A program made the translations under genes and the position numbers. Of a stretch of DNA of 64,000 nucleotides, positions 47,491 through 63,664 are shown piece by piece. The notes beneath the pieces are model-generated. The model was given only the letters and a program-made list of their open reading frames with translations. It was not told the DNA's origin and made no database searches. Source of the DNA: Cyanobium sp. CZS48M (GTDB lineage: Bacteria > Cyanobacteriota > Cyanobacteriia > PCC-6307 > Cyanobiaceae); NCBI GenBank assembly GCA_030373145.1, contig JAUCZK010000001.1:186001-250000 (forward strand). Reading direction: 5' to 3'. The stretch's first letter is position 1, and every line of letters starts with the position of its first letter.

Positions 47491-47616
47491 AAGCTGTTGA
47501 CACCTAGGCTACCCATGGCGGTTTCGCAGCACCGGGATGGCCACGACCGCGATTCGGAGGATGGAGGGAAAGCCGTGGCCCTGTGCCCCGGAGAGTCCTT
47601 GCCCTCTCTGGAGACC

Positions 47617-48585: not shown

Positions 48586-49136
48586 AAAGTCGGCCGGTGG
48601 TTCTGCCTGTTGTGCTCTCGACCGTGCTGCTGCTGGGGCTCCTGGCTGTGGTGAACCGGAGACACCCGAGCCAGGAGCCCCACCACACGGCCATGGCCCT
48701 CACGCTGCCCTCGGCCCAGGATGTGGAGCGTCCCGGACTGGTGTTCAGTGATCGAGACGGCCACAAGCCCCGATCGAGCTCCTTGTCCTTCTGGATGTTG
48801 CACAAGAGCAAGAAGGTCTGGTTCCGCGTCCCTGATGCGGCGCCGGGGAGCGATCTTCAGCCGATGCTCCTGTACCGCGGTCGGCGCATCCTGTTCGGGG
48901 GTGATCTGGCCAACTTGTCGCCCAGCCAAAGCCAGCGGCTGAAACGCGACAGCATTCTCTGGGGTGATGCCGTCGCCCATGGCTGGGGTGTGGGTCCTGA
49001 GCACACCAACTACTACCTGTTCATCTGGACCCGCTGGTCGTGGCTGCATCCAGCCTTCAGGTCTCCATCGCGCTTCAGCCTGCGTTATCGGCCCCCAACG
49101 GCGCCTGAGAGGGCAGCAGATCGATCCGATGGCTGA
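48582..49136 (+). CDS. Membrane-anchored protein, function unknown
   Basis: A 184-residue protein starting at a TTG that overlaps the previous stop. The N-terminus has one hydrophobic span (VVLPVVLSTVLLLGLLAVV), and the rest is probably outside the cytoplasm. It is rich in Trp and Arg in the middle (KVWFRVPDAA, ILFGGDLANLSPSQSQRLKRDSILWGD) and later LFIWTRWSWLHPAF. I recognise no family. It is co-transcribed with the GAF-GGDEF gene, which suggests a shared surface or signalling role. It ends by overlapping the facing RsbW-like gene by 62 bp. Confidence 0.65.
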   Translation: MKSRPVVLPVVLSTVLLLGLLAVVNRRHPSQEPHHTAMALTLPSAQDVERPGLVFSDRDGHKPRSSSLSFWMLHKSKKVWFRVPDAAPGSDLQPMLLYRGRRILFGGDLANLSPSQSQRLKRDSILWGDAVAHGWGVGPEHTNYYLFIWTRWSWLHPAFRSPSRFSLRYRPPTAPERAADRSDG

Positions 49137-49587
49137 TCGTCAGCCGGCACCCCTGCTCACCCCGGCGTTGGTAGGTGATCTGCCAGCCACGCTGCCGCTG
49201 CAGCTGCCGCAGCAGCACTATGCCCCAGTGGGCCTCCCGCTCCAGTGGGTCGTAGTCGTTGCTCGCCTGTTCCCTGTCGAGCTGGCGCCAGGCCTCCTCC
49301 ATGTCGTAACCCGGGCCGTGGTCGTCGATCTGGATGCGGAGTTCAACGCTGGAGCGTGAGAGCTCGATGGCGATCGGGGGGGGCGGCGAGAGGTCGCGGT
49401 GGGCATGGCGGACCGCATTGCTGAAGCCCTCCATCAAGGCGGTCTGGCCTTCCACCCAGAGTGTGTCGTTGATCTGCGCCGAGCGCATTCGCTCAAAACG
49501 TGCGAGAACCTCGACGACGCCATCGAGCTGACTGGGTACCAGAAAGGACTCCCGATGGCTGGGGCTGGCGCTCGCCATGGCGATCAC
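49075..49587 (-). CDS. RsbW-like anti-sigma / partner-switching ATP-binding kinase
   Basis: A 170-residue HATPase_c_2 protein of the RsbW/SpoIIAB type, which phosphorylates STAS-domain antagonists and binds sigma factors or other targets. The N-box is EGFSNAVRHAH (53-63), the G1 region DDHGPGYD (88-95), and HWGIVLLRQLQ (120-130) corresponds to the G2 ATP-lid area. The start is a GTG at 49587 overlapping the sugar transferase stop by 4 bp, or an ATG at 49578. It is the last gene of the polysaccharide operon. Its 3' end overlaps the facing gene by 62 bp. Confidence 0.88.
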   Translation of the reverse strand: MIAMASASPSHRESFLVPSQLDGVVEVLARFERMRSAQINDTLWVEGQTALMEGFSNAVRHAHRDLSPPPPIAIELSRSSVELRIQIDDHGPGYDMEEAWRQLDREQASNDYDPLEREAHWGIVLLRQLQRQRGWQITYQRRGEQGCRLTISHRIDLLPSQAPLGADNAG

Positions 49588-50579
49588 ATCCCGCCAGCCT
49601 TACGACTGAACACCACAAGGATCGTTCTCAGGATCAGCTTCAGATCATGGAGCAGGCTCCAGTTCTGCTGATAACGGAGATCCAGGGCAATCACATCCTC
49701 GAAACGGCGAATCGATGAACGACCGCTCACCTGCCATTCACCACTGAGTCCTGGCTTGACATCGAAACGCTGCCAGTTCGGCACGTCGTAGAGCCCAACT
49801 TCATCCGGAGTGGAGGGGCGGGTGCCGATCAGGCTCATGTCACCGATGAGCACATTCCAGAACTGAGGCAGCTCATCGAGGCTGGTCTTGCGCAGGATGC
49901 GGCCCACCCGGGTGATGCGCGGATCGTTCTCGTTCTTGAAGAAGGCCCCATCCGCCTGGTTGGCCACGCTGCTCTTGAGGGCCTCGGCCTGCGCCACCAT
50001 CGAGCGGAACTTCCAGATGCGGAAACGACGCCCCATCCAGCCGCAACGAACCTGGGAGAACAGGATCGGTCCCGGACTGTCGCAGCGAATGGCGATCGCA
50101 ATCGGCACGAAGAGCGCGGCCGTGATCGACAGTCCGACCAGGGCGCCAGCGATGTCGATCAACCTCTTCGTGCGCGAGCGCACGGAGGGGTGGGTCTGCG
50201 GTGGCCGTCGATCCTCCCGGCGTCCGGGCGTGGCCACGACAGCGTCGGTGTGGTCGGTGATCGGCAGACGAGACTCCAGCCCCGTCATCGTCAGGGCCAG
50301 GCGCACCTGATGGTTCACGCTCCAGGCCTGCAGGGGGAGGGAGCGGGCCTGGGCCAGCTTGATGGCGCCCACCAACGCACCAATGCCGCTGCTGTCGATC
50401 ACCACGGTGTGGCCGAAGTCGAGCACGACAGCCTTCAACTCCGGCGCCGAGAGCCAGCTGGGGAGGTCATCGCGCAGTTGGATGGCCTCGGCCACGGTGA
50501 GCCGGGGTGGCAGCTGGATCAGCAAGGTGCCGTGACGCTGGCAGAGGCCACAGGGATTGGGCTTGGGCGGGGGTTCCAT
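49584..50579 (-). CDS. STAS domain fused to initiating sugar transferase
   Basis: A 331-residue fusion. Residues about 13-112 form a STAS (anti-sigma antagonist) domain with LTVAEAIQLRDDLPSWL and VVLDFGHTVVIDSSGIGALVGAI, where Ser63 in DSSGIG sits at the phosphorylation site. A Pro/Arg linker (113-137) precedes a bacterial sugar transferase (PF02397), with KRLIDIAGALVGLSITAALFVPIAIAI (membrane span), WKFRSM, and the catalytic KTSLDELPQFWNVLIGDMSLIGTRP (Asp235, Glu236). Such enzymes load the first sugar phosphate onto undecaprenyl phosphate. The start is the ATG at 50579; the longer frame overlaps the previous gene. Coupled to the RsbW-like gene. Confidence 0.9.
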   Translation of the reverse strand: MEPPPKPNPCGLCQRHGTLLIQLPPRLTVAEAIQLRDDLPSWLSAPELKAVVLDFGHTVVIDSSGIGALVGAIKLAQARSLPLQAWSVNHQVRLALTMTGLESRLPITDHTDAVVATPGRREDRRPPQTHPSVRSRTKRLIDIAGALVGLSITAALFVPIAIAIRCDSPGPILFSQVRCGWMGRRFRIWKFRSMVAQAEALKSSVANQADGAFFKNENDPRITRVGRILRKTSLDELPQFWNVLIGDMSLIGTRPSTPDEVGLYDVPNWQRFDVKPGLSGEWQVSGRSSIRRFEDVIALDLRYQQNWSLLHDLKLILRTILVVFSRKAGGM

Positions 50580-50586
50580 GGATTCT

Positions 50587-51108
50587 TCAGGCTCCGCTGT
50601 GGCGCTCAGGGCGGCCGTCGGCGGTGGTGAGCCGCCCGGCGAAACGCCGATGGAGGCTTGCTGAGAGCACCTGGGCGGAGTGCTCGGAGAGATCGCTGAT
50701 CGAAGCGTGTCTGGGCCGCTCCAGGAAACGCACCAGATCGCCGGGGCACCAGCCAATCGGCACGTCCATCTGGGAGAGGGCCATCGCCAGTTCCACCTGG
50801 TGATCATCGACATGTTCCTGAAAACGCTGGGATCGTGGCACCAGGATGTAAGGCTTGCTGAGCTGATCGAGCAACAGCACGGTTCCTTCACCGCAGTGGG
50901 CGATCACCAGCCGCGAGCGCTCGATCAGCTCACGGAACGCGTCCTCCTTGAGCATCCGATATACCGTGGCCCCACTGGGCAATGCTGTGCAGGTGCCGTA
51001 CTGCACAACCACCTCTTCCTGGATCAAGTCCTCTTCGAGCAGGATCTCGATCCACTGCATCAGCCGGTTGAAGGGGTATTGCTCGGTGCCCACGGTGATG
51101 AAAATCAT
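50587..51108 (-). CDS. PssE/Alg13-like glycosyltransferase subunit
   Basis: A 173-residue protein that starts MIFITVGTEQYPFNRLMQWIE, the typical Alg13/PssE opening. LVIAHCGEGTVLLLDQLSKPYILVPRSQRFQEHVDDHQVELAMAL is the nucleotide-sugar binding region of the family. It works as a pair with the PssD/Alg14-like protein encoded just upstream: PssE carries the catalytic half while PssD anchors it to the membrane, as in rhizobial and streptococcal glucuronosyl- or galactosyltransferases. The ATG at 51108 overlaps the PssD stop by 4 bp. Confidence 0.88.
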   Translation of the reverse strand: MIFITVGTEQYPFNRLMQWIEILLEEDLIQEEVVVQYGTCTALPSGATVYRMLKEDAFRELIERSRLVIAHCGEGTVLLLDQLSKPYILVPRSQRFQEHVDDHQVELAMALSQMDVPIGWCPGDLVRFLERPRHASISDLSEHSAQVLSASLHRRFAGRLTTADGRPERHSGA

Positions 51109-51602
51109 CGAACCACTCCATCCAGGACTGAAGCCGCACGTCCTGCCGGATCCAGCAGTAGATCCGAAATCAGCTCCGCCCGGGGATAGCGGCTCTGCAG
51201 CTGAGGCCAATGCACGTAGAGCACATGCAGAAAGGGCCTGACCAGGCGGGCCGAGAGGCTGAGGCTGTGGATCCTGGTGATCGATTCGATGAACACCACC
51301 TGGCTGCCGAACAGGCGGCCGAGCAGGAGAAAGGGAACGGCAACCCCGGCCCCGGTGGAGAGGATCAGGGTGGGACGTGTCCGGCGAAGGATCCCCAGCG
51401 CCAACCCCAGATTCCTCAGCAGGTTGGGCAGGTTGCGGTTGGTGGGGCTGAAGGCCCAGCGCACCGCTTCCCCCTGCAACTCCTGCTCCGTGGTGGCCGT
51501 GCGGAAGGTCACCCACAGCCGTGGATAGTCTCCCCAGAAGGGTCTGAGTTGCTGCAGGGCCTTGAAATGCCCCCCGGAGGAGCAGACCAGCAGGATGGTC
51601 AT
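51105..51602 (-). CDS. PssD/Alg14-like glycosyltransferase subunit
   Basis: A 165-residue protein starting MTILLVCSSGGHFKALQQLRPF, with the Alg14 GGH motif, followed by RWAFSPTNRNLPNLLRNLGLALGILRRTRPTLILSTGAGVAVPFLLLGRLFG and VVFIESITRIHSLSLSARLVRPF. It is the membrane-anchoring partner of the PssE-like subunit encoded next. Together they add the second sugar of the exopolysaccharide unit in related systems. It overlaps its neighbours by 4 bp on both sides. Confidence 0.88.
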   Translation of the reverse strand: MTILLVCSSGGHFKALQQLRPFWGDYPRLWVTFRTATTEQELQGEAVRWAFSPTNRNLPNLLRNLGLALGILRRTRPTLILSTGAGVAVPFLLLGRLFGSQVVFIESITRIHSLSLSARLVRPFLHVLYVHWPQLQSRYPRAELISDLLLDPAGRAASVLDGVVR

Positions 51603-52663
51603 GGTTCTGCTCCGCCGGAGCCTGTTGCGCTATCTCCCGGACGAGCGTCCTGGCGCATCCTTCGCTCCTGGCTCGATCCCGTGAGTCTGATCATGCTGGA
51701 TTCCATTCGGCGATACAGCCAATCAGGAAGCAGCCAGAGCAGATAGGCCGCCCCCAGGCTGATCAGGGTGCGGCGGGGTTCTTCCAGCAGGATTCGGACG
51801 TGGCTGGCGAGAGCTTTGTGCATCAGCTGCACCGCCAGAGCGGGTTGCCGTTGCCGGATTGCGCGCCTAGCGAGATAGCGCAGTTGGTAGGCCCTGGCCC
51901 TGGGGGCCCAGCGGGCGATGAAGCCCGGATGACTGGTGGCGGTCTTGGTGAGGACTCGCTCCCAGGCGGCGTACTGCTGCTCGAGGTTGGCGGAGAGGCC
52001 ACCGGCATTGACCCGGTAGAGGGTCAGCGCTTCCGGCAGACCCTCGAAACGCCAGTTGGTCTGCAGGGCGATCCGCAACCAGCACTCAATGTCCTCTGAC
52101 TGGCGGAAGGAATCATCGAAGTAATAATCTTCGGGTTCGCCATAGAGGTTGGCCTGGAAACGAATGGCCTCCAGCACCTCCCGGCGGATCACAACCGCTG
52201 AGCCATTTCCGATTGGATTGCGGCAGAAGATCAGCTCCGGCGTGATGTCGTTCAACTGGGGCATCTGATAGATCCCCAGTGGCGACCCGTCTTCATTGAT
52301 GAAGCCGGAACGAGAAAAGCTCACCCCCACCTCATGACGGTGCTGGAAATGGTCCAAATGCCGCTTGATCTTCTCGGGCAGCCAAAGGTCGTCGCTGTCA
52401 AGAAAGGCGCAATAGGCTCCTTTGGCCTGGCGGATTCCCGTGTTTCGGGCCCCGGCGAGTCCCCTGTTGCGCTGCTGCAGGATCCTCAGCCTTGGATCGG
52501 TGAACTCCCGGCAGATGGCGGGTCCCGTGTCGGTGGAGCCATCATCGACCACCAGGATCTCCAGATGGGGATAGGTCTGGGCGAACACCGACTCGAGCGT
52601 GGCGCCTACGGTGGCCGCGCTGTTGTAGAGCGGAATGATCACCGAGACGAGCGGATTCGTCAT
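51599..52663 (-). CDS. Family 2 glycosyltransferase
   Basis: A 354-residue GT2 enzyme. The nucleotide-sugar fold opens with VSVIIPLYNSAATVGATLESVFAQTYPHLEILVVDDGSTD, then has RGLAGARNTGIRQAKGAYCAFLDSDDLWLP, where DSD is the metal-binding site, and later SEDIECWLRIAL. The C-terminal half (about 230-354) is helical and probably membrane-associated. The transferred sugar is unknown. It overlaps the preceding GT2 and PssD genes by 4 bp. Sequence similarity to the other GT2 suggests a local duplication. Confidence 0.9.
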   Translation of the reverse strand: MTNPLVSVIIPLYNSAATVGATLESVFAQTYPHLEILVVDDGSTDTGPAICREFTDPRLRILQQRNRGLAGARNTGIRQAKGAYCAFLDSDDLWLPEKIKRHLDHFQHRHEVGVSFSRSGFINEDGSPLGIYQMPQLNDITPELIFCRNPIGNGSAVVIRREVLEAIRFQANLYGEPEDYYFDDSFRQSEDIECWLRIALQTNWRFEGLPEALTLYRVNAGGLSANLEQQYAAWERVLTKTATSHPGFIARWAPRARAYQLRYLARRAIRQRQPALAVQLMHKALASHVRILLEEPRRTLISLGAAYLLWLLPDWLYRRMESSMIRLTGSSQERRMRQDARPGDSATGSGGAEP

Positions 52664-53628
52664 GGCTGGCCCCTTCGGACGCCGAAAGCTGCCCGCACGC
52701 GGCTGATCCAGGCCCTCAGCAGCACCGCCGCCCAGGTCAGCCAGGTGCGCCGGGGGTGTTTCCAGAGCAGGGCGGGATCGGAGCGCAGGGCCCGTGCCAT
52801 GTAGTCGGATCCCTGGGCGGCTGCTGAACGCAGACGAAGACTACGGCGAGCCAGGTAGCGCAATTGAATCGCACGGGCCTCATTCAGATGCTTCTCCACC
52901 AGCTCCGGGGCATAGCGGCGTGCCTGCTCCACCATCTGCTCCCAGCCGGTCTCCATTCGAGCGAGCTGGCCCGAGAGCCCACCGACGCTGGTGCGGTAGC
53001 CGGTGAGTACCTCAGGCACTCCGGCGATCTCCCAGTCCGTGCAGCAGCGAACCCGCAGCAGCCATTCCAGGTCTTCGCTGTAACTCATCGATTCCAGGAA
53101 GCCCCCTACCTCCTCCAGCACGAGGCGCCGCACCACCCAGTTGGAGGTGGTGGTGGTGGGATTTTCCGAGAGAAAGTCCTCGGCGCGAAGATCGCGCAGC
53201 TTCGAGCTCGACACCTGGCCCGTGGGCACACCTTCGGGGGTGAGCACCTCCACTCGGGCGAAGCTCACCCCCAGGCGAGGTTCGGCCCGGAACTGTTCCA
53301 GGTGTCGCTCCAGCTTGGTGGGATGCCAGAGGTCATCGGCATCGAGGAAGGCCACGATCGGGCCCCGGCTGCGGGCCACCCCAAGATTGCGGGCGGCCGA
53401 AACCCCCCTGTTCGGGGCGCAGATCAAGCCCAGCCGCTCGTCACCGGCCTGCAGCCGGCGCACGCAGTCGGCGGTGCCGTCGCGGGAGCCGTCATCGATC
53501 ACCAGGAGCTGCCAGTCGCTCCAGGTCTGGGCCTGCACAGCGGCAATCGTCGCCGGCAGTGAACTCTCGGCGTCGAAGGCTGGAATCACCACCGACACCA
53601 TGGGCTCCCCTTGAGCTTGGCTCAGCAT
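52660..53628 (-). CDS. Family 2 glycosyltransferase
   Basis: A 322-residue GT2 enzyme with VSVVIPAFDAESSLPATIAAVQAQTWSDWQLLVIDDGSRDG, then GVSAARNLGVARSRGPIVAFLDADDLWHPTK carrying the DAD metal site, and SEDLEWLLRVR. The layout, including a helical C-terminus with basic and aromatic residues, mirrors the gene at 51599, which suggests tandem duplication. The start is the ATG at 53628 (MLSQAQGEPMVSV), sharing one base with the stop of the flippase gene. Substrate unknown. Confidence 0.9.
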   Translation of the reverse strand: MLSQAQGEPMVSVVIPAFDAESSLPATIAAVQAQTWSDWQLLVIDDGSRDGTADCVRRLQAGDERLGLICAPNRGVSAARNLGVARSRGPIVAFLDADDLWHPTKLERHLEQFRAEPRLGVSFARVEVLTPEGVPTGQVSSSKLRDLRAEDFLSENPTTTTSNWVVRRLVLEEVGGFLESMSYSEDLEWLLRVRCCTDWEIAGVPEVLTGYRTSVGGLSGQLARMETGWEQMVEQARRYAPELVEKHLNEARAIQLRYLARRSLRLRSAAAQGSDYMARALRSDPALLWKHPRRTWLTWAAVLLRAWISRVRAAFGVRRGQP

Positions 53629-54920
53629 CAGGCCAGCTCCCGGGCGGGGGAATGCAGCAACCGCCTGGCCCAGACCAGATACAGGGGCTGCAGGACCAGG
53701 TGGGTGACCATCACCGCCACGGCCACCCCGAGAATCCCCCAGCCGGTTCCCACCAGAATCGCCAGGGCCAGGAGCACTGTGAAGATCAGGTTCCAACGCA
53801 GATCCACCTGGGGGAGACCCACGGCACGGAAGAGCATCGAGGCGGCGTTGGCGAAGGGCCTGGAGAGGGCCGAGAGACAGATCAGGATCAGCACCGGCAC
53901 CGCCCCCCGCTCCACCCACTGGGCTCCGAACACGATCGGCACGTAGAGCGGGGCCAGGCTGGACTGAAGGGCCACCAAGGGGCCGATCACCAGGGCGGTG
54001 GTGCGCAGGTTGCGGTTGAAACGCCGCTGCAGCTCTCCCGGGTCGGAGCGCACGTCACAGAGGTCGGAGTACATCGAAACCCCCATCGCATTCACGGCAC
54101 TCAGGCTCAGGCCCAGGCCCGCATTGAAGGCGAAGTAGTAGACACCCAGCGGGGCCAGCCCTAGGAAGCGACCGATCAGCAGATAGTCGATGTTCTCCCG
54201 CAGGGTGTTGAGCAACTCGACGCCGAGAATGCGACTGCCGAAGCCCAGTATCCGCTGCCAGTGGCGGATCGTGAAGGCCTGCACCGGCCGCCAGGCCTGG
54301 TACCTATACATCATCAGCACCCAGATCGGTGCCACCAGCAGTTTGGGCAGAACGATGGCCCACATGCCGAGTCCCATCAGGGCCAGCCCGCCGGTGAGCA
54401 GGTTGTCGGTCACCACCTGGGCGAGGTTGGTGAGGCTGAACACATTCAGGCGGTTCTCGCGGCGAATCAGGGCCGTCTGCACCATGGCCAGGGGATAGAT
54501 CAGATAGGTGCAGCCGATCGCCATGATCGGCATGATCAGCTTGGGGTTGCCGAAGAAGCGGGCCACGGCGAAGGAGCCGATGGTCTGGATCAGGAACAGG
54601 CCCCCGCCCAGCAACCAGTTCAGCCAGTAGGCCGTGACGCAGAGCTCCTCCACATCGGTGGCATCGGCCTGAACGAGCTTGTCGCCGATGCCGTTTCGGG
54701 TGAACACCCGGATGAATTCATGGGTGGTGAGCACGATGGCGGCCAGCCCGTAATCCTCCGGGGTGAGCAGGCGGGCCAGGATGATCGTGGCCAGCAGTCG
54801 CGACACCCGGATTCCAAGCTCCGAGAGCCCCATCCAACCCACGTTGCGCACGAAGCGATCGCCGGCCAGCCGTGCGCGCAAGCCTTGCAAGCGGGTCAGG
54901 AGCGTGGCCAGCCCGCTCAT
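53628..54920 (-). CDS. Wzx/PST-type polysaccharide flippase
   Basis: A 430-residue integral membrane protein of the polysaccharide transporter (MATE-like Wzx) group with about 12 hydrophobic spans. Family text includes WMGLSELGIRVSRLLATIILARLLTPEDYGLAAIVLTTHEFIRVFTRNGIGDKLVQ at the N-terminus and ENIDYLLIGRFLGLAPLGVYYFAFNAG in the middle. It flips lipid-linked repeat units across the membrane. The start is the ATG at 54920; it overlaps the GT4 gene by 4 bp and the next gene by 1 bp. Confidence 0.88.
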   Translation of the reverse strand: MSGLATLLTRLQGLRARLAGDRFVRNVGWMGLSELGIRVSRLLATIILARLLTPEDYGLAAIVLTTHEFIRVFTRNGIGDKLVQADATDVEELCVTAYWLNWLLGGGLFLIQTIGSFAVARFFGNPKLIMPIMAIGCTYLIYPLAMVQTALIRRENRLNVFSLTNLAQVVTDNLLTGGLALMGLGMWAIVLPKLLVAPIWVLMMYRYQAWRPVQAFTIRHWQRILGFGSRILGVELLNTLRENIDYLLIGRFLGLAPLGVYYFAFNAGLGLSLSAVNAMGVSMYSDLCDVRSDPGELQRRFNRNLRTTALVIGPLVALQSSLAPLYVPIVFGAQWVERGAVPVLILICLSALSRPFANAASMLFRAVGLPQVDLRWNLIFTVLLALAILVGTGWGILGVAVAVMVTHLVLQPLYLVWARRLLHSPARELA

Positions 54921-55903
54921 CGGAACTCCCCAAGCAGCGTTTCCCAGGCGCACACGAAGTTGTCCCAGGCGGAGGCTGCGGTGGAGCGGCCATGCCGTGC
55001 CCAGGTCAGGCGTTGCTCGTCGCTGGCCGCCGCCATCGCCGTGATGGCGGCGGCCCAGGCCGAAGGTTCGTCGCTCTCGACCGCGAGGCCACAACCCTGG
55101 GCCTGCTCCTGGAGGCCATCCACCGCCCGCACCAGGATGGGACGCGCCGCCGCTCTCGCTTCCAGGCAGACATTGCCCCACGGTTCCCAGCGGGAGGGAA
55201 TCGCCACAGCATCGGCCTGGCTCAGAAAGCCGGGCACATCGTCGACGCGGCCCACCAACTGGATGGCTGGATCGGTGCCGGCCTGCTGCTCGAGGCTGGA
55301 GCGCAGCGGTCCTTCTCCCCCCAGCCGCAGCTGCACGCTGCCGGCCGGCAGCTGGCGCACGGCCTCGATCAACAGATCGAATCCCTTTTGTTCGCTCAGG
55401 CGTCCGAAGGCCACCAGCCGCAGGGGCCTGGGGGCCGGTCCGGGCAGCGGCACCGCGAGGAAGGGGGCCACGTCACGGCTGGAGCGGATCAAGCGCAGAC
55501 GACTGTCGCCCACCAGCTGGGCCTCTCGCATCCATTGCCGTTGTCCCTCGGAAACGGCCACGACCCGGTCCATGGCCCCGTAGGTGAGGCGAAGCATGCT
55601 GCGGAATCGCCGCTTCGAGGGGACCTGGTGCTGCTCGAACCCCTGGCTGTAATGGTGCTCGATCAGGATGCGCCGGGGCCCCGCCAGGGCGGCCAGATCC
55701 GCCAGGCCGCGCCAGGAGCTGGCGCGATGCAGCACGATCAGGTCTGGCCGCCAGTCTCGGATAAGGCGCCGGGCGTCCTCACGGCCCACACACTCGAACG
55801 TGACCCACTCCCCCAAGCGGGATCGGGAGAGACTCTCGAGGGTGGCGGCGATGCCGCCGCTCCAGCCCATGCCCTGGCCAGCGAGGATGTGAAGGACTCT
55901 CAC
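54917..55903 (-). CDS. Family 4 glycosyltransferase
   Basis: A 328-residue GT-B glycosyltransferase. The N-terminal half has VLHILAGQGMGWSGGIAATLESL and the later YGAMDRVVAVSEGQRQWM, and the C-terminal half has RLVAFGRLSEQKGFDLLIEAVRQL and VAIPSRWEPWGNVCLEARAAARPILV, with the EX7E-like signature. The start is the GTG at 55903, overlapping the previous gene's stop by 4 bp. The sugar donor is not predictable. It belongs to the leftward exopolysaccharide operon. Confidence 0.88.
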   Translation of the reverse strand: MRVLHILAGQGMGWSGGIAATLESLSRSRLGEWVTFECVGREDARRLIRDWRPDLIVLHRASSWRGLADLAALAGPRRILIEHHYSQGFEQHQVPSKRRFRSMLRLTYGAMDRVVAVSEGQRQWMREAQLVGDSRLRLIRSSRDVAPFLAVPLPGPAPRPLRLVAFGRLSEQKGFDLLIEAVRQLPAGSVQLRLGGEGPLRSSLEQQAGTDPAIQLVGRVDDVPGFLSQADAVAIPSRWEPWGNVCLEARAAARPILVRAVDGLQEQAQGCGLAVESDEPSAWAAAITAMAAASDEQRLTWARHGRSTAASAWDNFVCAWETLLGEFR

Positions 55904-56967
55904 CAGCGACCGTCCAGGACAGGTTCCAGGCACTGCCGCAGGTCGTGACGCACCTGGCGGCGGATCTCTCCATCGTTGAAGCGGCGCTGCCCGGACTCCA
56001 GAATCGTCTCCAGCTGGGTGGAGGGCTCAAAGCTCTCGAGACCACAGCCAACCACTCCCAGCCGCTCGCTGAGGTCGCGCCCCTTGTTGGAGTAATGCAG
56101 GTTGAAGGGCACCCGTCCGGCGGCCAGGGCGAGCACGGCTGTGTGATACCGAACGGCCACAGTCAGGCTCGCCAGCTTGAGGGCACCCATCACCAGTTGC
56201 CAGCCAGCCAGACCCGAACCCTCCTGAAAGGGATTGAAGCTGGCCAGCTGGGGGACCCGCTGGGTCAGGGCTTGGGCCACGGCCAGGTCGTTGTCGGCCC
56301 CATAGGCCTGGGACTGGATCAGAACCACGGGCTGGAGGCCCCGTCCCAGCAGGAGCTGGCTGAGTTCCACCAGTTGGTCCTGAAAGGTTGCAGGGTTGTG
56401 GGCATACATCCTGTCGAAGCCCCGCACCGAGAGCAGGGCAGCCCGGGACGGCTCGATCCCGGCATCACGCAACAGGCGGCTGGCTTCTGCTTCGGCGCGG
56501 GGATGAAGGGTCAGGGCAAAGGCTGCGTCGTAGGAGAGGATCGCGTCCACACCGGCCTGGCGCAGGCGCCGGTGACTTTCGGCATCGCGGACGCACACGC
56601 CCGCCAGGCGCTTCAGGCACAACGCCAGGGCCTGGAAGCTCAGCCCATGGCATGACCTTGGAATGGACTGGCCGAACAGAACCGTGTGGCTCGGATCATG
56701 GCGGAGCTGCTTGAGATTGTGCAGAAAGGTGCGCGTGATCAGCCACTCTCTGCCGTTGTTGAAGATGTCGCCACCGACACTGATCAAGGCATCACAGGAG
56801 CCGAGCTCGGCCGGGAAGCTGACACCAGGGACTGGTAGTGGTTCAACGTCCTGAACCTGGGCCACCACCTCTGCGGGTTCCACCATGCTGGCCAGGGCGC
56901 TGTAGATGGCTGCATCGCCGATGTTCAGGGTCGAGTAGGTGTTGATCAGCCCAATGCGGATAGCCAT
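55900..56967 (-). CDS. Polysaccharide pyruvyl transferase family protein
   Basis: A 355-residue protein of the CsaB/WcaK family, which adds pyruvate ketals to polysaccharides. It begins RIGLINTYSTLNIGDAAIYSALASM, with ALISVGGDIFNN, LYLFGQSIPRSC-like text (TVLFGQSIPRSCHG), a later RYHTAVLALAAGRVPFNLHYSNKG, where RYH and the following segment mark the active-site end of the family. It is the first gene of the leftward operon, so its promoter lies in the 330 bp gap. Start ATG at 56967. Confidence 0.88.
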   Translation of the reverse strand: MAIRIGLINTYSTLNIGDAAIYSALASMVEPAEVVAQVQDVEPLPVPGVSFPAELGSCDALISVGGDIFNNGREWLITRTFLHNLKQLRHDPSHTVLFGQSIPRSCHGLSFQALALCLKRLAGVCVRDAESHRRLRQAGVDAILSYDAAFALTLHPRAEAEASRLLRDAGIEPSRAALLSVRGFDRMYAHNPATFQDQLVELSQLLLGRGLQPVVLIQSQAYGADNDLAVAQALTQRVPQLASFNPFQEGSGLAGWQLVMGALKLASLTVAVRYHTAVLALAAGRVPFNLHYSNKGRDLSERLGVVGCGLESFEPSTQLETILESGQRRFNDGEIRRQVRHDLRQCLEPVLDGRW

Positions 56968-57295
56968 GGTTAGAGCAAGATCAGGTAACCATTGATTGCT
57001 TTCAGCAATCCAGTAACATGGTGTTGGCGCTGCTCATGGGCTGATGCGGAGTGGGAGTTTGAAGGACCCACCGGCATGGCAGAGTTCTGTTGTTAGCTAA
57101 AATATAGCATCGTGCTAAGTCTTGGATGTCTCCATGTGGACCTCTCCCGCTCCATTTCCTTCGCTGTGGTGGAAACGCGCCTAGCGGGACAGGGCATGGA
57201 CAGCGATGGACTTGTGATCATGCTTAACATGGTCAAAGCCGTTGGGTCATGACGGTGCAGGACCTGCATCATCCGAAGTGACAGATCACCTGCCG
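56968..57295. promoter_or_regulatory. Divergent control region between the two polysaccharide operons
   Basis: This 328 bp gap separates the leftward and rightward operons. It has an AT-rich centre at about 57093-57125 (TTAGCTAAAATATAGCAT) that fits promoter elements, with TTAGC and GCTAA inverted arms around it. A perfect 17-base palindrome lies at 56994-57010. No gene is evident. The rightward gene could start at a TTG at 57242 but the ATG at 57296 is better. Confidence 0.55.
56994..57010. repeat. Perfect palindrome, candidate operator
   Basis: GATTGCT (56994-57000) and AGCAATC (57004-57010) are exact inverted repeats with a TTC centre. They sit about 30 bp upstream of the leftward operon's first ATG. 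Outer ACCAT and ATGGT half-sites extend the symmetry imperfectly. It may bind a repressor or act as a transcript hairpin. Confidence 0.5.
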
Positions 57296-58384
57296 ATGCT
57301 CCACAAGGATTCGCTTCTGCCGCTTCTTTGGTTTCGCTCTTCTGCTGCGGCTGCAGCGATCGTTGCAGTCCTGGCTGCCGGCATGGGCTTGTGTCTGGCA
57401 GGCCCCGGCCGGGCGCTGCCCCTGTCTCCAGGGGACCGGCTCAAGTTGAGCATTCCGGATGGAGAGGAGTTCAGCGGACTTTACGAGGTGAATCAGGACG
57501 GGAATCTGGAGATTCCCTACCTGCCTCCCCTGAGTGCTGCTGGACTGGAGCCCAGCGCACTCCAGCATTCGATCACCCATGCCCTGCTCTCGGGTGGCTA
57601 CTTCCAGCCCTCGTTCCTGCGCGTCAGTGTGAACGTCATCCAGTGGGCCCCTGCCCAGGTGTTCGTGCGTGGGGCCACATTCCTGCCTGGCCGTGTCCTG
57701 ATCAACGAATTGTCCGATGCTGAGCTCACCCAACCTCCGGTTCAAATCAGCGGCAACAATCCCACCAATCGCTACCTGTCTGTTGCCCTGCGCCAGGCCG
57801 GTGGTCTCAAGCCGACAGCTGACATCAAGGCCATCCAGCTGATCCGGGCTGGGAAGCCGCGAACCCTGGACCTCAGCGGCATCTTCAATGGGGAGCCCTT
57901 TGATGATGTCCCCCTGATCGCCGGTGATCAGGTGATCGTTCCTGATACCGGAGTTGTCAATAACCTGATTGTCAGGCCTTCACAGGTGACCCCAGTCGGT
58001 GTGAAGATCTTCCTCTCAAACCTTACGGTTCCGGCGACTGGAAACTCGATCTCTGGGATCAGTCGGGATGCCACGTCGTTTTCCTATGGATCACGGTTTT
58101 CCCAGGCTGTCGTCGCCGCCAATTGCGTCGGTGGCACCAGAGGAACCAATGCGGGTCGTCGAGCGATTTTGGTCACAACCAACGAGCTCACCGGCAAAAC
58201 TTCAGTGTTGGAGCGAGGTATCCATGAGCTGATGCAGGCCTCCACGAATGATGCTAACAACCCTTATCTGATGGCCAACGACTCGGTGGCATGCTTCGAT
58301 TCTACCGTGACATCCATCCGCGATGTCATGAGGACGTTGTCGGATGTGATCCTGCCAGGAACACTGATTCGCACGTTCTTCTGA
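57296..58384 (+). CDS. Wza-like polysaccharide export protein
   Basis: A 362-residue exported protein. A signal segment (AAAAAIVAVLAAGMGLCLAGPGRA) leads to a Poly_export domain, LSPGDRLKLSIPDGEEFSGLYEVNQDGNLEIPYL, and a SLBB-like region with APAQVFVRGATFLPGRVLI and LSVALRQAGGLKPTADIKAIQLI. Such proteins form the outer-membrane exit for capsule or exopolysaccharide. A lipobox is not clear. The start is ATG at 57296. It is coupled to the Wzz-like gene by a TGATG overlap and is the first gene of the rightward operon. Confidence 0.88.
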   Translation: MLHKDSLLPLLWFRSSAAAAAIVAVLAAGMGLCLAGPGRALPLSPGDRLKLSIPDGEEFSGLYEVNQDGNLEIPYLPPLSAAGLEPSALQHSITHALLSGGYFQPSFLRVSVNVIQWAPAQVFVRGATFLPGRVLINELSDAELTQPPVQISGNNPTNRYLSVALRQAGGLKPTADIKAIQLIRAGKPRTLDLSGIFNGEPFDDVPLIAGDQVIVPDTGVVNNLIVRPSQVTPVGVKIFLSNLTVPATGNSISGISRDATSFSYGSRFSQAVVAANCVGGTRGTNAGRRAILVTTNELTGKTSVLERGIHELMQASTNDANNPYLMANDSVACFDSTVTSIRDVMRTLSDVILPGTLIRTFF

Positions 58385-59799
58385 TGCAGGCAGCAACGCG
58401 GAAGATTGCTTCAAAGCTGCGGGCCCATCCGCTGCATGGCTACCTGAAGCGTCGCTGGAACCGCTACGCCACCCTTGGCCTCGCCGCCAACAGCTTCATC
58501 TGGATCACGTCGCTGGTGTACCTGGCCTTGGCCCGCCCGGTCTACACGACGACATGGGCCCTGCTTCTACCTGGTGGCAGCAGTGGTGTGAGTGTGAATC
58601 TGCCGGAAATCGGCCAGGCGTCTTCCTCCAGTGGAACGGGAATGGGTAGCTCCACTTTTGATCAGCGGGCCAACTATGAATACATCTTCAGCAGCAATAC
58701 GGTGCTGCATCGGGCCGCCAAGCTGGCGGGTCTATCTCCCGATCAGTTCAAAAAACCGAGAATCAAGCTGTTGGATAACACCACCTTGATGCAGTTTGAG
58801 GTGGTGGCCCCTTCTCCGGCTCTGGCAAAGGCCAAATCCTTTGCTCTCTATGAAGCGATCGCGGAGCGTCTCAATGAGCTTCGACGCAGGGAGATCAGCC
58901 AGCGAGAGGGCCCCACCCAGAAGATTCTGAGTGAGGCCCAGCTCAAGCTGGAAGTCGCCCAGACCAAACTCTCCCAGTACAAGTCGCGGTCTGGCCTCAC
59001 TTCCGACGATCTTGTTGGCAACCTCTCCAGCAACATCGAGGATCTACGCAAGCAGCGGGCCGAGGCCACAGCCCAGCAGCGCCTCTTCGCCTCCCGGCTG
59101 CAGCAGTTGCGGCGCGATCTCGGCCTCAGCTCCTCCCAGGCAGCGGATGCCTTTCTGCTTCAGAACGATGGTGTCTTTCAGCAGAACCTGAGGGAGTACA
59201 GCGAGGCCAGCGCTTCCCTCAAGGTGTTGTCCGGGCGTTTTGGGGTCAACCATCCCCGTGTGATCAAGGAACGCAAGCGTCAGGAGTCGGCGATGGCTGC
59301 GCTGCTCCGCCGCAGCCGCTCGCTTCTGTCACGATCACTGTCCTCGGCTGAACTGGCCCGCCTGGCCTTGGCCAGCTCAGGGGCCTCGGGCCGCGACACC
59401 CTGCTGCAGGGTCTGGTGACGGTGCAAGCCGACCTCCAGGGTGTTCAGGGCCGGATCCAGGGCCTCGATCGGGCCATGGCCAGCCTGGAGGCCCGTCTGA
59501 GCCGGCTCTCCCAACGCCAGTCGAACCTGGACTCCCTCAAGCGTGATGTGCAGATCGCCGAGGCCGTGTTCGCCTCCACGCTCACAAAGCTGGATCTGGG
59601 TCAGGGCGAGCTGTTCTCGGCCTATCCCCTCGTCCAGATGGTCGTGGATCCGGAGTTGCCCCAGAAACCGTCCTCTCCCAAGGTGGGATTCGTGCTGGCG
59701 GGGGCTGTTCTCGGCTCCGTCTTCTCAAGCCTTGGTCTCTGGCTGTTGTGGGTGCGCAAGCCCTGGGTCAAGAAGCTTTCCAAGTTCATCTCCCCATGA
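58384..59799 (+). CDS. Wzz/chain-length determinant-type protein, no kinase domain
   Basis: A 471-residue inner-membrane protein. One span lies near residues 32-52 (LGLAANSFIWITSLVYLALA) and one at the C-terminus (VGFVLAGAVLGSVFSSLGLWLLW), with a long coiled-coil region of about 380 residues between, including KILSEAQLKLEVAQTKLSQYKSRSGL. PxxP-like PELPQKPSSPKVG precedes the second span, as in polysaccharide co-polymerases. There is no Walker A kinase domain, so tyrosine-kinase control must come from elsewhere or be absent. It shares a base with the stop of the Wza-like gene. Confidence 0.88.
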   Translation: MQAATRKIASKLRAHPLHGYLKRRWNRYATLGLAANSFIWITSLVYLALARPVYTTTWALLLPGGSSGVSVNLPEIGQASSSSGTGMGSSTFDQRANYEYIFSSNTVLHRAAKLAGLSPDQFKKPRIKLLDNTTLMQFEVVAPSPALAKAKSFALYEAIAERLNELRRREISQREGPTQKILSEAQLKLEVAQTKLSQYKSRSGLTSDDLVGNLSSNIEDLRKQRAEATAQQRLFASRLQQLRRDLGLSSSQAADAFLLQNDGVFQQNLREYSEASASLKVLSGRFGVNHPRVIKERKRQESAMAALLRRSRSLLSRSLSSAELARLALASSGASGRDTLLQGLVTVQADLQGVQGRIQGLDRAMASLEARLSRLSQRQSNLDSLKRDVQIAEAVFASTLTKLDLGQGELFSAYPLVQMVVDPELPQKPSSPKVGFVLAGAVLGSVFSSLGLWLLWVRKPWVKKLSKFISP

Positions 59800-61151
59800 A
59801 TGCTCCCTCCCTGGGCTTGGATGGCGCAGCGGGGGCTCCAAGGGCTCAAGATCGGATCACGCCTGCCAATCTTCCTGAGCGCCTGATCTGGTGGTCCATC
59901 ACATGGATCTATCCCATCTGGGTCGTGGGTGGGCTCTATGTGGTGGGCTCTGTCCTCGGTTGGCTGCTGCTGTTCTGTCTGCTGGTCAAGGTGTTGGCCC
60001 AGGATGAATCCACACCTGACTCGGAGCGTCTCCGGGTGTCCTGGGTGCTCTGGTGCTGGGTGGGCGGAATGTTGCTGATGGAAGTGGCGCTGCTCGCCGG
60101 TCATCTCGACTTCAATCTCGGCATCGCCATGATCATCAAATCATCGATCGGCTGGGCCAAGGGATGGGCGGCTCTGGCCCTTTATCCCCTGGCTGGCTGC
60201 CTGAGGATCCGCGCCCCTTTGATCTATCGGGCAATCTGCATCGTTGGCTTGCATACTTTGCTGATCACCCCTGTCCTCCTGATTACGCCATATCTTCATC
60301 TTCCCCAGGTCCTCTATGTATCCCCGTTGAGGTTGATTGGTGGTCCGGGCAATGAGTTCTTCGACGTACCTCTCTACGAAATCGACGGCAGCACCGGTGA
60401 TCTGCGCTGGCGGTTGTTCACCCCCTGGGGACCAGCCCTGGGCATGGTCGGCAACGTGTTCTTCATGCTCTCGCTTCAGGAGAAGAATCTACGCTGGAAA
60501 AGCGCGGGCTTGATGGGGTCGGTGGTGATGTGTCTGGTCTGCAAGTCGAGGCTGGCCCAGTTGAGCCTTGTTCTCGTCCCACTGATCACGGCCATTCTCG
60601 GCCGGCTGGCACGACCGGCCATGTTGCTGATCCTGGGCTTTGTCAGTTATCTGGCGGGCCTGCTCTCTCCCTGGATTCTGCTCAGCCTTGAGCAGTTCTG
60701 GGATTCATTCAAATCAGCCCGGGCGGGGTCCACGCGGGTTCGCATGGCACTGAAGCGTATCGCTGTCTATCGTTGGAAGGTCGAAGCTCCCCTCTGGGGA
60801 CATGGAATTGTGGAGAAGGGCCCACACCTGGTCGAGGGGATGCCGATAGGCTCCCATCACACCTGGGCCGGGTTGCTCTTCGTCAAAGGTGCCGCTGGTT
60901 TTGCGGCCTTGGCTTTGCCCATGCTGGCCAGCTTTGTTGATCTTCTGATCAGAGCGTTGGATTCGCGTCGACAGTTGGCCCGAGTTGGCCTGAGCATTGT
61001 CATCATACTATTCCTTTACACGTTTGGCGAAAATCTTGAGATTCTTGTCTATCTGTACTGGCCCGGTCTGGTGGTCATGGGTCTCGCGCTCCAGGAATCT
61101 CTCCCCCAGGATCAGCCACCTCCACCATCAGGCGCTCTGCTGATGGCCTGA
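59796..61151 (+). CDS. O-antigen ligase / Wzy polymerase-like membrane protein
   Basis: A 451-residue membrane protein with about ten hydrophobic spans, such as WIYPIWVVGGLYVVGSVLGWLLLFCLLV and VILATI-like stretches near the end (LSIVIILFLYTF). A loop toward the C-terminus, HGIVEKGPHLVEGMPIGSHHTWAGLLFVKGAAGFAALALP, has the His-rich pattern of the O-antigen ligase/polymerase family. It probably polymerises repeat units or attaches them to a carrier. The ATG start overlaps the Wzz-like stop by 4 bp. Family assignment rests on topology and the loop, not a strict motif. Confidence 0.75.
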   Translation: MNAPSLGLDGAAGAPRAQDRITPANLPERLIWWSITWIYPIWVVGGLYVVGSVLGWLLLFCLLVKVLAQDESTPDSERLRVSWVLWCWVGGMLLMEVALLAGHLDFNLGIAMIIKSSIGWAKGWAALALYPLAGCLRIRAPLIYRAICIVGLHTLLITPVLLITPYLHLPQVLYVSPLRLIGGPGNEFFDVPLYEIDGSTGDLRWRLFTPWGPALGMVGNVFFMLSLQEKNLRWKSAGLMGSVVMCLVCKSRLAQLSLVLVPLITAILGRLARPAMLLILGFVSYLAGLLSPWILLSLEQFWDSFKSARAGSTRVRMALKRIAVYRWKVEAPLWGHGIVEKGPHLVEGMPIGSHHTWAGLLFVKGAAGFAALALPMLASFVDLLIRALDSRRQLARVGLSIVIILFLYTFGENLEILVYLYWPGLVVMGLALQESLPQDQPPPPSGALLMA

Positions 61152-61231: not shown

Positions 61232-61606
61232 ATGGCTGACCTGGATAGCGAAAAAGTCACGATCGATCAGTTGCGCGGCACCGCTCTCCCCTTCCTGCGC
61301 GCCGACCAGGAAGGCCTCGTTGTGGAGATCAATGAGGCTTTTCAACAAATCTACGGATGGCTTCCTGAAGACATCCTCGGCCGCTCCCTTGGCTTGATTC
61401 TACCCACTTTTTTCAAGGATGCTCACCACCTTGGATTCTCCCGTTTCAGGATTACCGAGGGTGTTGGCTCTGAAGTCCTCAATCACCCGCTCAAGCTGAA
61501 GACAGTCTGCAAGGATCTTCGCGAGGTTGAGTCTGAGCATTTCATCGTCGCTGAGCGTGAGGGCTCCACCTGGAGCTTTGCTGCCACCCTCACACCGCTG
61601 GAGTGA
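61232..61606 (+). CDS. PAS-domain protein
   Basis: A 124-residue single PAS domain without output module. FLRADQEGLVVEINEAFQQIYGWLPEDILGRSLGLILP is the canonical N-terminal PAS core and HFIVAEREGSTWSFAATLTPLE ends the sheet. It probably senses a ligand or redox state and works with the hybrid kinase encoded 4 bp downstream. The start is the ATG at 61232, 80 bp after the Wzy-like gene. It may be co-transcribed with the polysaccharide genes. Confidence 0.88.
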   Translation: MADLDSEKVTIDQLRGTALPFLRADQEGLVVEINEAFQQIYGWLPEDILGRSLGLILPTFFKDAHHLGFSRFRITEGVGSEVLNHPLKLKTVCKDLREVESEHFIVAEREGSTWSFAATLTPLE

Positions 61607-61610
61607 GGCT

Positions 61611-63299
61611 TTGAGTTCAGAGGATCTTCAGGAGCAGCTTCGCAGAACATTGGGGCGCCTGGAGGCAGCTCTGAGCTCGGTCGAGGACGCGCTGGTACTG
61701 ACCGATTTCAATGGACGTGTTGAATGGACCAACCGGGCTTTCAATCTCTTTGTTGGTCAGTCCAGGTTGCTCAGTCTGGGTCGTCTTCTCGATGACCTGT
61801 TGCCCCCTCACTTTATCGACGGAATCCAGGAGACACCGCGGGATCTGCTTGATGGGGCCCGCCTTGGGCCTGGCAGCCTGCTCTGGGACCTCACTCCCAC
61901 GCCGCCGCGCAGGGTTGTCGAGGTCAAGTGGTCACCGGTGAATCTCAAACCCGATCCTTCTCTGGTCTTTGTGTTCCGTGACCTCACTGAGATCACCCGC
62001 GCCCAGGATCAGATCACCAAGGCCCGGGACACTCTCGAGCAGGATGTGGCGGCCCGGACTCTCGAGCTTCAACAGGCCCGGGATGAAGCATTGGCAGCTA
62101 CGGGTGCCATGGGGCAATTTCTGTCCACCATCAGTCATGAGATTCGAACTCCCCTCAACGCCGTGATCGGCATGTCCGACCTTCTGCTGGATACAAGCCT
62201 GGACGGCCAGCAAAAGGAGCTTGTTCACACCATTAACAGCAGTGCGGAGCTGTTGCTTCGTCTCATCAACGACATCCTTGATCTTTCCAAGATCGAAGCT
62301 AAAAAGATGAAGATCAGCTCGGAGGCTTTCTCTCTGCGATCACTGGTTCTGGATTGCTGCCGGATGATGGATGCGGCTGTGCGTGCGAAGCGCCTTGAGC
62401 TACGTTGCTCCTTTAGCGATGATCCACCTGATGCTCTGATTGGCGACGGTCTGCGCATTCGTCAGATTGTTCTCAATCTACTCAATAATGCAATTAAGTT
62501 CACCAGTCATGGTTCAGTTGGTGTCAAGATTGGTTGGCGACCACTCACTCCATCCACCATCGAGTTGGACCTTGTCGTAGATGATACAGGAACCGGAATC
62601 TCCGAAGACTTTCTTTCAAAAATTTTCCAGGACTTCACCCAGGAGCACAATCAAGCCCATGCCAGCCATCACCATGGCACGGGCTTGGGGCTGGCCATCT
62701 GCGATCGGCTTTGCCGCTTGATGGGGGGCCGCATTGAGGCCATGAGCCAGCTTGGCCAGGGCAGTCGATTCCATGTCCGCTTGCCGCTGGAGCGCAGTGA
62801 GCCCGAGGCTCCGTCTGCTTCGGGATCTGATCAGCCCCTTGAGCTGGACCTCAGCTCGGTCCGCCTGCTCGCTGTGGAGGATAACCGCATCAACCAGCGG
62901 GTTCTTGAGCTTCTTCTGGCCAAGCTGAATCTCCAGGCCGAATTTGCCGACTGCGGTGAGGATGCCGTGGAACGTCTCGGCCAGGGGGGATTCAATCTGG
63001 TGTTGATGGATCTGCAGATGCCCGGCATCGATGGGCTCGAGGCCACCCGCCAGCTGCGCGCCTTGCCGATCCCACAGCCTTATGTGGTGGCGCTGACGGC
63101 GTTCGCGTTCGAAGATCAGCAACAGGAGTGCCTTGCCGCAGGCATGCAGGATTTCCTGACCAAACCTGTGAGAGTTCCGGCCTTGCAGGGTTGTCTTCAG
63201 CGCTTTCTGCACTGGCAATCCCTTCAACAGGGTCGTTCTGCCTTGTCTGCAGGCACTCCACCATCAGCGGTCCTGACACCCTTCGATTCGTACCAATGA
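61611..63299 (+). CDS. Hybrid sensor histidine kinase with PAS and receiver domains
   Basis: A 562-residue hybrid kinase starting at a TTG preceded by GAGTGAGG. An N-terminal PAS domain (about 15-135, ALVLTDFNGRVEWTNRAFNLF) leads into a coiled coil and a HisKA domain with FLSTISHEIRTPLNAV, where His176 is the phosphorylation site. The ATPase domain has NLLNNAIKFT (N-box, Asn293 area), DDTGTGI and GTGLGLAI. The C-terminal receiver carries VEDNRINQRVLELL and VLMDLQMPGIDG with Asp467. No membrane span, so it is cytosolic. A longer frame back to 61527 lacks family support. It overlaps the Hpt gene by 4 bp. Confidence 0.93.
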   Translation: MSSEDLQEQLRRTLGRLEAALSSVEDALVLTDFNGRVEWTNRAFNLFVGQSRLLSLGRLLDDLLPPHFIDGIQETPRDLLDGARLGPGSLLWDLTPTPPRRVVEVKWSPVNLKPDPSLVFVFRDLTEITRAQDQITKARDTLEQDVAARTLELQQARDEALAATGAMGQFLSTISHEIRTPLNAVIGMSDLLLDTSLDGQQKELVHTINSSAELLLRLINDILDLSKIEAKKMKISSEAFSLRSLVLDCCRMMDAAVRAKRLELRCSFSDDPPDALIGDGLRIRQIVLNLLNNAIKFTSHGSVGVKIGWRPLTPSTIELDLVVDDTGTGISEDFLSKIFQDFTQEHNQAHASHHHGTGLGLAICDRLCRLMGGRIEAMSQLGQGSRFHVRLPLERSEPEAPSASGSDQPLELDLSSVRLLAVEDNRINQRVLELLLAKLNLQAEFADCGEDAVERLGQGGFNLVLMDLQMPGIDGLEATRQLRALPIPQPYVVALTAFAFEDQQQECLAAGMQDFLTKPVRVPALQGCLQRFLHWQSLQQGRSALSAGTPPSAVLTPFDSYQ

Positions 63300-63664
63300 C
63301 GGCACACTCGGTTCTCGATCAACGGATCTGGGAGGACTTGCGTGCTCTGGGTGGTTCCGAGGCTGATGCGCTCATCCTTGAGCTGATCACCATGTATCTG
63401 GAGGATGCGCCGCTCCAGCTGGAGGCCATCCGTGAGGCCGCCCGTCAGTCTGACCGGCAGGCTTTGGCCTTTCATGCCCATGCCCTTCGTTCCCCCAGCG
63501 CCAGTCTGGGGGCATTGGGGCTCGCGGAGGCCTGCGCTTGCCTGGAAGCGGGGGCCGCCTCTACCTCTGCGGAGCTTTCCCTGGAGTCTTCCCTGGTTCA
63601 GGCGGTTCTGGGCGAAGCAGAGCGGGTCGTTCAGGAGTTGACGTCAAGGTCGCGTGAACTCTGA
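63296..63664 (+). CDS. Hpt phosphotransfer protein
   Basis: A 122-residue four-helix phosphotransfer protein. IWEDLRALGGSEADALILELITMYLEDAPLQLEAIREAARQSD forms the first helices, and the phosphorylated histidine should be His62 in AFHAHALRSPSASLGALGL. It carries phosphate from the hybrid kinase receiver to the next regulator. The usual HxLKG reads HALRS here. The ATG overlaps the kinase stop by 4 bp. Confidence 0.9.
   Translation: MTAHSVLDQRIWEDLRALGGSEADALILELITMYLEDAPLQLEAIREAARQSDRQALAFHAHALRSPSASLGALGLAEACACLEAGAASTSAELSLESSLVQAVLGEAERVVQELTSRSREL

Follow-up and report, generated by a model that had tools for sequence, protein, structure and literature searches.

A STAS domain fused to an initiating phosphoglycosyl transferase beside an RsbW-type kinase: a candidate partner switch on cyanobacterial polysaccharide synthesis

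In Cyanobium sp. CZS48M, a single protein joins a STAS domain to an initiating phosphoglycosyl transferase (PGT), and its gene is directly followed by that of an RsbW/SpoIIAB-type serine kinase at the end of a polysaccharide gene run. Judged from sequence comparison, we consider it rather likely (a probability of about 0.6) that a partner-switch module has as its direct target the enzyme committing sugar to the pathway, by way of a kinase and a phosphatase working at the fused STAS domain. In known partner switching, the kinase phosphorylates a free STAS antagonist and a sigma factor is controlled as a result. Competition among polysaccharide pathways for undecaprenyl phosphate leads one to expect control at the first step; to our knowledge, few mechanisms of such control have been described. 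If the proposal is true, cyanobacteria would have a simple and widespread answer for slime, sheath and heterocyst envelope: an initiating enzyme with its own serine-phosphorylation switch. The DNA analyzed here (the window) is a stretch of 64,000 nucleotides, positions 186,001-250,000 of the forward strand of JAUCZK010000001.1 (GCA_030373145.1), and its relevant features are collected in Table 1.

Table 1 Features of the polysaccharide cluster and its regulatory genes (window positions unless marked C1).
Feature	Position	Strand	Remarks
RsbW/SpoIIAB-type serine kinase (HATPase_c_2), 170 aa	49075..49587	-	Pfam E 1.4e-12, fold and alignment
STAS-PGT fusion, 331 aa	49584..50579	-	ORF, Pfam domains, alignments and AlphaFold model
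Ser63 codon (first Ser of DSSGIG), predicted phospho-acceptor	50390..50392	-	computed from the start codon at 50579
PssE/Alg13-like glycosyltransferase subunit	50587..51114	-	upstream neighbour in most loci
PssD/Alg14-like glycosyltransferase subunit	51105..51602	-	
Two GT2 glycosyltransferases	51599..53628	-	
Wzx-like flippase	53628..54920	-	assigned from position and conservation rather than from Pfam
GT4 glycosyltransferase and polysaccharide pyruvyl transferase	54917..56967	-	
Wza-like export protein (Poly_export)	57242..58384	+	
Wzc-like and Wzy-like proteins	58384..61151	+	assigned from position and from conservation in relatives; Pfam gave no match
Small PAS-type protein	61232..61606	+	overlaps the next gene in a different frame
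Hybrid sensor histidine kinase (PAS-HisKA-HATPase-REC)	61527..63299	+	
Hpt phosphotransfer protein	63296..63664	+	
Receiver + PP2C (SpoIIE) phosphatase, 400 aa	63654..64000, past the window edge to C1:250856	+	
Free STAS protein, 119 aa	C1:250856-251212, outside the window	-	convergent to the receiver-PP2C gene

Residues 15-111 of the fusion match Pfam STAS above the cut-off (E 5.7e-11), and residues 138-324 match Bac_transf (PF02397; E 2.5e-63, 213 bits against a cut-off of 27). The STAS domain carries the motif D62-S63-S64-G65-I-G and the PGT domain the motif L234-D235-E236-L-P-Q. The initial annotation had described a STAS-PF02397 protein with Ser63 in DSSGIG and Asp235/Glu236 in LDELPQ, and both the domains and the residues are as it stated. 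An artefact, with two genes misread as one or adjacent by chance, was rejected, since an uninterrupted fused frame is present in 95 sampled loci. Ser63 aligns with SpoIIAA Ser58 and is the first serine after the aspartate. Because the phosphorylated serine of SpoIIAA is likewise the first after the aspartate, a position that we take to hold in the numbering of RsbV as well, Ser63 is the appropriate candidate acceptor, and the second serine is ruled out by the same numbering. Ser63 is invariant in 97 of 97 aligned fusions (and in 53 of 53 in another alignment), as are Asp62 among the aligned class fusions and the catalytic dyad D235-E236 of the PGT in the fusion alignment. The linker between the domains contains a conserved THPSVRS at 129-135, and the histidine of this motif (THPSVxS) is invariant across class fusions.

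The fusion was modelled with AlphaFold2 using an alignment of related sequences (mean pLDDT 77.6, with a poorly defined inter-domain linker). The STAS part is SpoIIAA-like (Z 13.9 to 1th8_B), and the PGT part has the PglC/WbaP catalytic fold, matching 8e37 and 8t53 (Z 15.5 and 16.0), with a re-entrant helix predicted at about residues 136-167. Large WbaP-type PGTs have an N-terminal transmembrane bundle and a cytoplasmic DUF ahead of the catalytic domain; the fusion does not share this layout, and its residues 1-115 form the STAS domain instead. The fused STAS domain has the SpoIIAA fold and the Asp-Ser acceptor site but, unlike SpoIIAA and RsbV, is not a single-domain protein.

The adjoining kinase, as the initial annotation also held, overlaps the fusion stop by 4 bp, its GTG start and the TGA stop sharing the letters GTGA. 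An identical overlap is found in 14 of 26 relatives' loci, and an alternative kinase start exists at an ATG three codons downstream (VIAMAS). The predicted catalytic Glu53 and Asn57 lie in the N-box. Of 54 kinases compared, all retain both the catalytic Glu and the Mg-binding Asn in the N-box, and 52 retain the G1 Asp. The glycine box of the ATP lid reads AHWG or GRG where RsbW has GGLG, with one glycine invariant and the others replaced, and the position of the RsbW Arg24 contact falls in an alignment gap. Since the catalytic Glu and Asn are present throughout, the kinase is probably active, though its ATP lid departs from that of RsbW. An AlphaFold2 model built from an alignment of related sequences (mean pLDDT 88.5) is closest to SpoIIAB (Z 15.3) and RsbW (Z 14.8), above all other GHKL proteins, and the best sequence match in the PDB is RsbW. 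As modelled, then, the closest structures to the window STAS domain and kinase are SpoIIAA-SpoIIAB and RsbV-RsbW. The output of those systems is a sigma factor, whereas the window STAS domain sits on an enzyme; no sigma factor was found among the genes identified in the cluster. At one other locus, two such kinases stand in tandem behind one fusion (L205:6947-8122). A search for a natural single chain joining the kinase to the STAS-PGT protein found none.

The fusion and the kinase close a minus-strand run of genes for a Wzx/Wzy-type polysaccharide, in agreement with their original description as the last genes of a polysaccharide operon. Past the kinase, in convergent orientation to the operon, lies a gene for a GAF-GGDEF protein, possibly a diguanylate cyclase (window 47497-48585). 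The gene pair of kinase and transferase described in the initial annotation is borne out, but the cluster also contains a phosphatase, a phosphorelay and a free STAS protein, partly past the window edge. With these additional genes, a full switch becomes a likelier mechanism than a two-protein pair. In most of the 17 fusion loci read over 20 kb, a receiver-PP2C gene and a free STAS gene occupy the opposite end of the cluster, and in some others they come directly behind the kinase: the order in L107, L108, L167 and the named loci L190-L193 is fusion, kinase, free STAS and convergent receiver-PP2C.

Within this set of genes, the STAS domain would serve as the point of regulation for the transferase, which attaches the first sugar-phosphate to undecaprenyl phosphate. 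The RsbW-type kinase, presumably co-transcribed, would bind the fused STAS domain and phosphorylate Ser63, and the receiver-PP2C phosphatase, driven by the cluster's hybrid histidine kinase and Hpt protein, would remove the phosphate. A change of state of the STAS domain, whether through phosphorylation or through capture and release of the kinase, would switch the transferase and thereby control Wzx/Wzy-type polysaccharide synthesis after translation. The free STAS protein, here and in many other loci, may serve the same kinase as a second client and tune the amount of free kinase. By analogy, it is likelier that the kinase turns synthesis off and the phosphatase turns it on, because unphosphorylated SypA of Vibrio fischeri promotes polysaccharide production (PMC10120452). 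An effect of the STAS domain on the catalytic domain through dimerisation or the re-entrant helix is plausible from comparison with EpsZ; there, the regulator contacts a cytoplasmic domain that precedes the catalytic domain, and it is believed to promote dimer formation (PMC12802240).

In the order of the window genome, the fusion occurs in 27 of 399 genomes (25 full length, two as broken pieces), and a relative of the kinase is present in all 27, abutting the fusion or nearly so. At the threshold used, the kinase family accompanies the fusion in 27 of 30 kinase-bearing genomes; two of the three that have the kinase without the fusion have it at a contig end. In G141 (L074:8372-8869), the kinase is kept without the fusion or the cluster. 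The small gene beside it is the one that follows the kinase in the window, so the polysaccharide cluster was apparently lost recently.

Across the class, a profile of the STAS domain and linker was searched against 390 genomes, and fusion-sized frames were found in well over a hundred. The architecture is therefore not confined to one genome. The initial annotation would have taken such confinement, a non-conserved serine or the lack of a kinase neighbour elsewhere as refuting its reading, and the data point the opposite way on all three. We read 99 loci around class fusions, 95 of them intact. A similar kinase lies within 700 bp of the fusion in 49 of the 95, from 14 family groups, nearly always downstream and on the same strand. 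When adjacency to a kinase is mapped on the fusion tree, 7 changes are needed, versus about 32 when the labels are shuffled. The same picture is seen in Synechococcus sp. WH 5701, Calothrix sp. PCC 7103, Microcoleus vaginatus and Planktothrix. The best 80 loci among the matches listed are cyanobacterial except for one Chloroflexaceae-labelled MAG contig (L215), which is possibly misbinned. About half of the fusions have no adjacent kinase, among them an f32 paralogue clade and a clade of the sampled Nostocales. Fusions without a nearby kinase show the same invariance of Ser63; its conservation thus does not single out the adjacent kinase.

Several observations weigh against direct control: the fusions without an adjacent kinase, the deviating ATP lid, a coevolution signal no stronger than that of PssE, and the absence of a known docking contact. 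In distance matrices, STAS and kinase have a partial correlation, given PGT, of 0.585, compared with 0.212 for PGT and kinase, but this was dropped as evidence when the control PssE gave an equal value (0.535 vs 0.482, 27 loci). As for docking, the position of SpoIIAA Asp23, which contacts the kinase, is Thr or Ser in 88 of 97 fused STAS domains, so that docking cannot copy SpoIIAA-SpoIIAB, whereas Asp23 is kept in 17 of 24 free STAS proteins. This difference favors the main rival explanation, in which the kinase, in the role of an anti-sigma factor, is a stable inhibitor bound to the fused STAS domain, phosphorylates mainly the free STAS protein, and is pulled off by dephosphorylated free STAS; Ser63 would then belong to the docking surface and not be the signal. 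The window genome and most relatives encode, within this cluster, a free STAS protein with a conserved acceptor serine, which is in keeping with such an arrangement. However, fusion, kinase and receiver-PP2C occur together in L111, L173 and L199, where the sequence read revealed no free STAS gene (every frame between the kinase and phosphatase of L111 is interrupted by stops), and the invariance of Ser63 is easier to explain by phosphorylation. We regard this hold-and-release arrangement as unlikely, though it is the main alternative.

A somewhat weaker case can be made for an ordinary partner switch, made up of kinase, receiver-PP2C and free STAS, whose output is elsewhere, for example at a sigma factor or another target, and that in this case the fused STAS domain would be no more than a structural or dimerisation module that happens to share the operon. 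STAS domains have structural roles in other proteins, as established for SulP transporters and MlaB. The half of fusions without an adjacent kinase would fit this explanation, as would the existence of related kinase/receiver-PP2C/STAS cassettes without a fusion, which may be of the HmpUVW kind. Most kinases away from the fusion belong to such cassettes, and together these unlinked kinases form one well-supported clade (99*). The fusion-linked kinases, in contrast, fall in lineages apart from it, and several genomes, G552, G642, G698, G657 and G633 among them, carry both kinds. Because the unlinked kinases form a clade of their own and several genomes hold both, the fusion-linked kinase looks dedicated to the fusion on phylogenetic grounds. 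It is often a separate paralogue whose sole neighbouring STAS domain is the fused one, which is our strongest indirect evidence that the fused domain is its partner. Together with the invariant acceptor serine in the fusion, this makes an output elsewhere improbable. Very improbable indeed is a fourth explanation, that the fused STAS domain is phosphorylated mainly by other kinases in trans and the adjacent gene is a local specialisation of minor effect: kinase-less fusions do retain Ser63, and 306 of the 390 class genomes have kinases of this family, many of them apart from the fusion, but in the window's order the family is found, at the threshold used, only with the fusion, apart from the two contig-end cases and the one apparent recent cluster loss noted above.

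Direct control of the transferase through its own STAS domain can be compared with several described systems. All4160 of Anabaena sp. PCC 7120 is, like the window protein, a glycosyltransferase with an N-terminal STAS domain, and it is needed for heterocyst envelope polysaccharide; the available portions of the two reports describe no kinase or phosphatase partner for it (PMC8256260, PMC4390870). The sampled Nostocales loci have no adjacent kinase, whereas the window fusion has one. The view in the initial annotation that no system of this form had been described thus needs to be narrowed: the fusion itself is already known from All4160 (PMC8256260), and the coupling to a kinase appears to be the new part. 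Text searches of the open-access literature yielded no account of the transferase being coupled to a partner-switching kinase.

In its genes, the circuit resembles SypA/SypE of the Vibrio fischeri syp locus, where a STAS protein with acceptor Ser56, an RsbW-type kinase, a receiver and a PP2C domain control polysaccharide at a step after transcription (PMC10120452). The STAS domain of the window is fused to the initiating transferase, whereas SypA is free, and SypE combines kinase, receiver and phosphatase in one protein, whereas the window kinase and receiver-PP2C are separate genes. In Nostoc punctiforme, the partner switch HmpU/HmpV/HmpW is tied to motility and polysaccharide (PMC8256260); HmpV, too, is a free STAS protein. 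An initiating PGT is already a target of post-translational control in Myxococcus xanthus, where EpsZ is controlled by the phosphorylation-dependent signalling protein EpsW; PGT-receiver fusions and tyrosine phosphorylation of the small PGT CapM have also been reported (PMC12802240). In EpsW/EpsZ, however, a response regulator acts on a large WbaP-type PGT with neither a STAS domain nor a serine kinase, both of which are present in the window.

The targets of SypA and HmpV have been a long-open question, for which the window fusion provides a testable idea: since a STAS domain is naturally fused to an initiating transferase, that enzyme may be the target of SypA- and HmpV-type STAS proteins. 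In its fullest form, our proposal is that a complete circuit of sensor phosphorelay, receiver-PP2C and RsbW-type kinase, with the committing enzyme as direct client through its built-in STAS domain, is ancestral to much of the cyanobacteria, and that SypA-like free STAS proteins could target the initiating transferase of their own locus. We advance this broader version tentatively, at slightly less than even odds. The distribution of the genes suggests that many cyanobacteria may switch slime-coat production through the enzyme itself and not through its gene.

Some minor features of these loci were also recorded. In the window genome and three relatives, the free STAS protein has DSNG for DSSG, with the acceptor serine kept (L057:16354-16635). 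An IS21-type IstA/IstB-like gene pair, judged by eye, adjoins it at L057:16895-19131 (window coordinates of about 65394-67630, thus outside the window). An extra single STAS protein directly upstream of the fusion in G590 (L115:10051-10407) is closer to fused than to free STAS sequences. The overlap of the PAS frame with the hybrid kinase frame recurs in the close relative G173, consistent with either two genes or a conserved frameshift. One fusion, G059:C10:51026-52006 (L071), is broken by a single in-frame TAG and represents a pseudogene or a sequencing error. Finally, PssE, PssD, STAS and PGT are encoded in a single 740-aa frame at L126:8457-10613 (G480), and PssE, STAS and PGT in a single 473-aa frame at L112:8641-10056 (G662), which hints that the PssE/PssD and STAS-PGT enzymes act as a complex.
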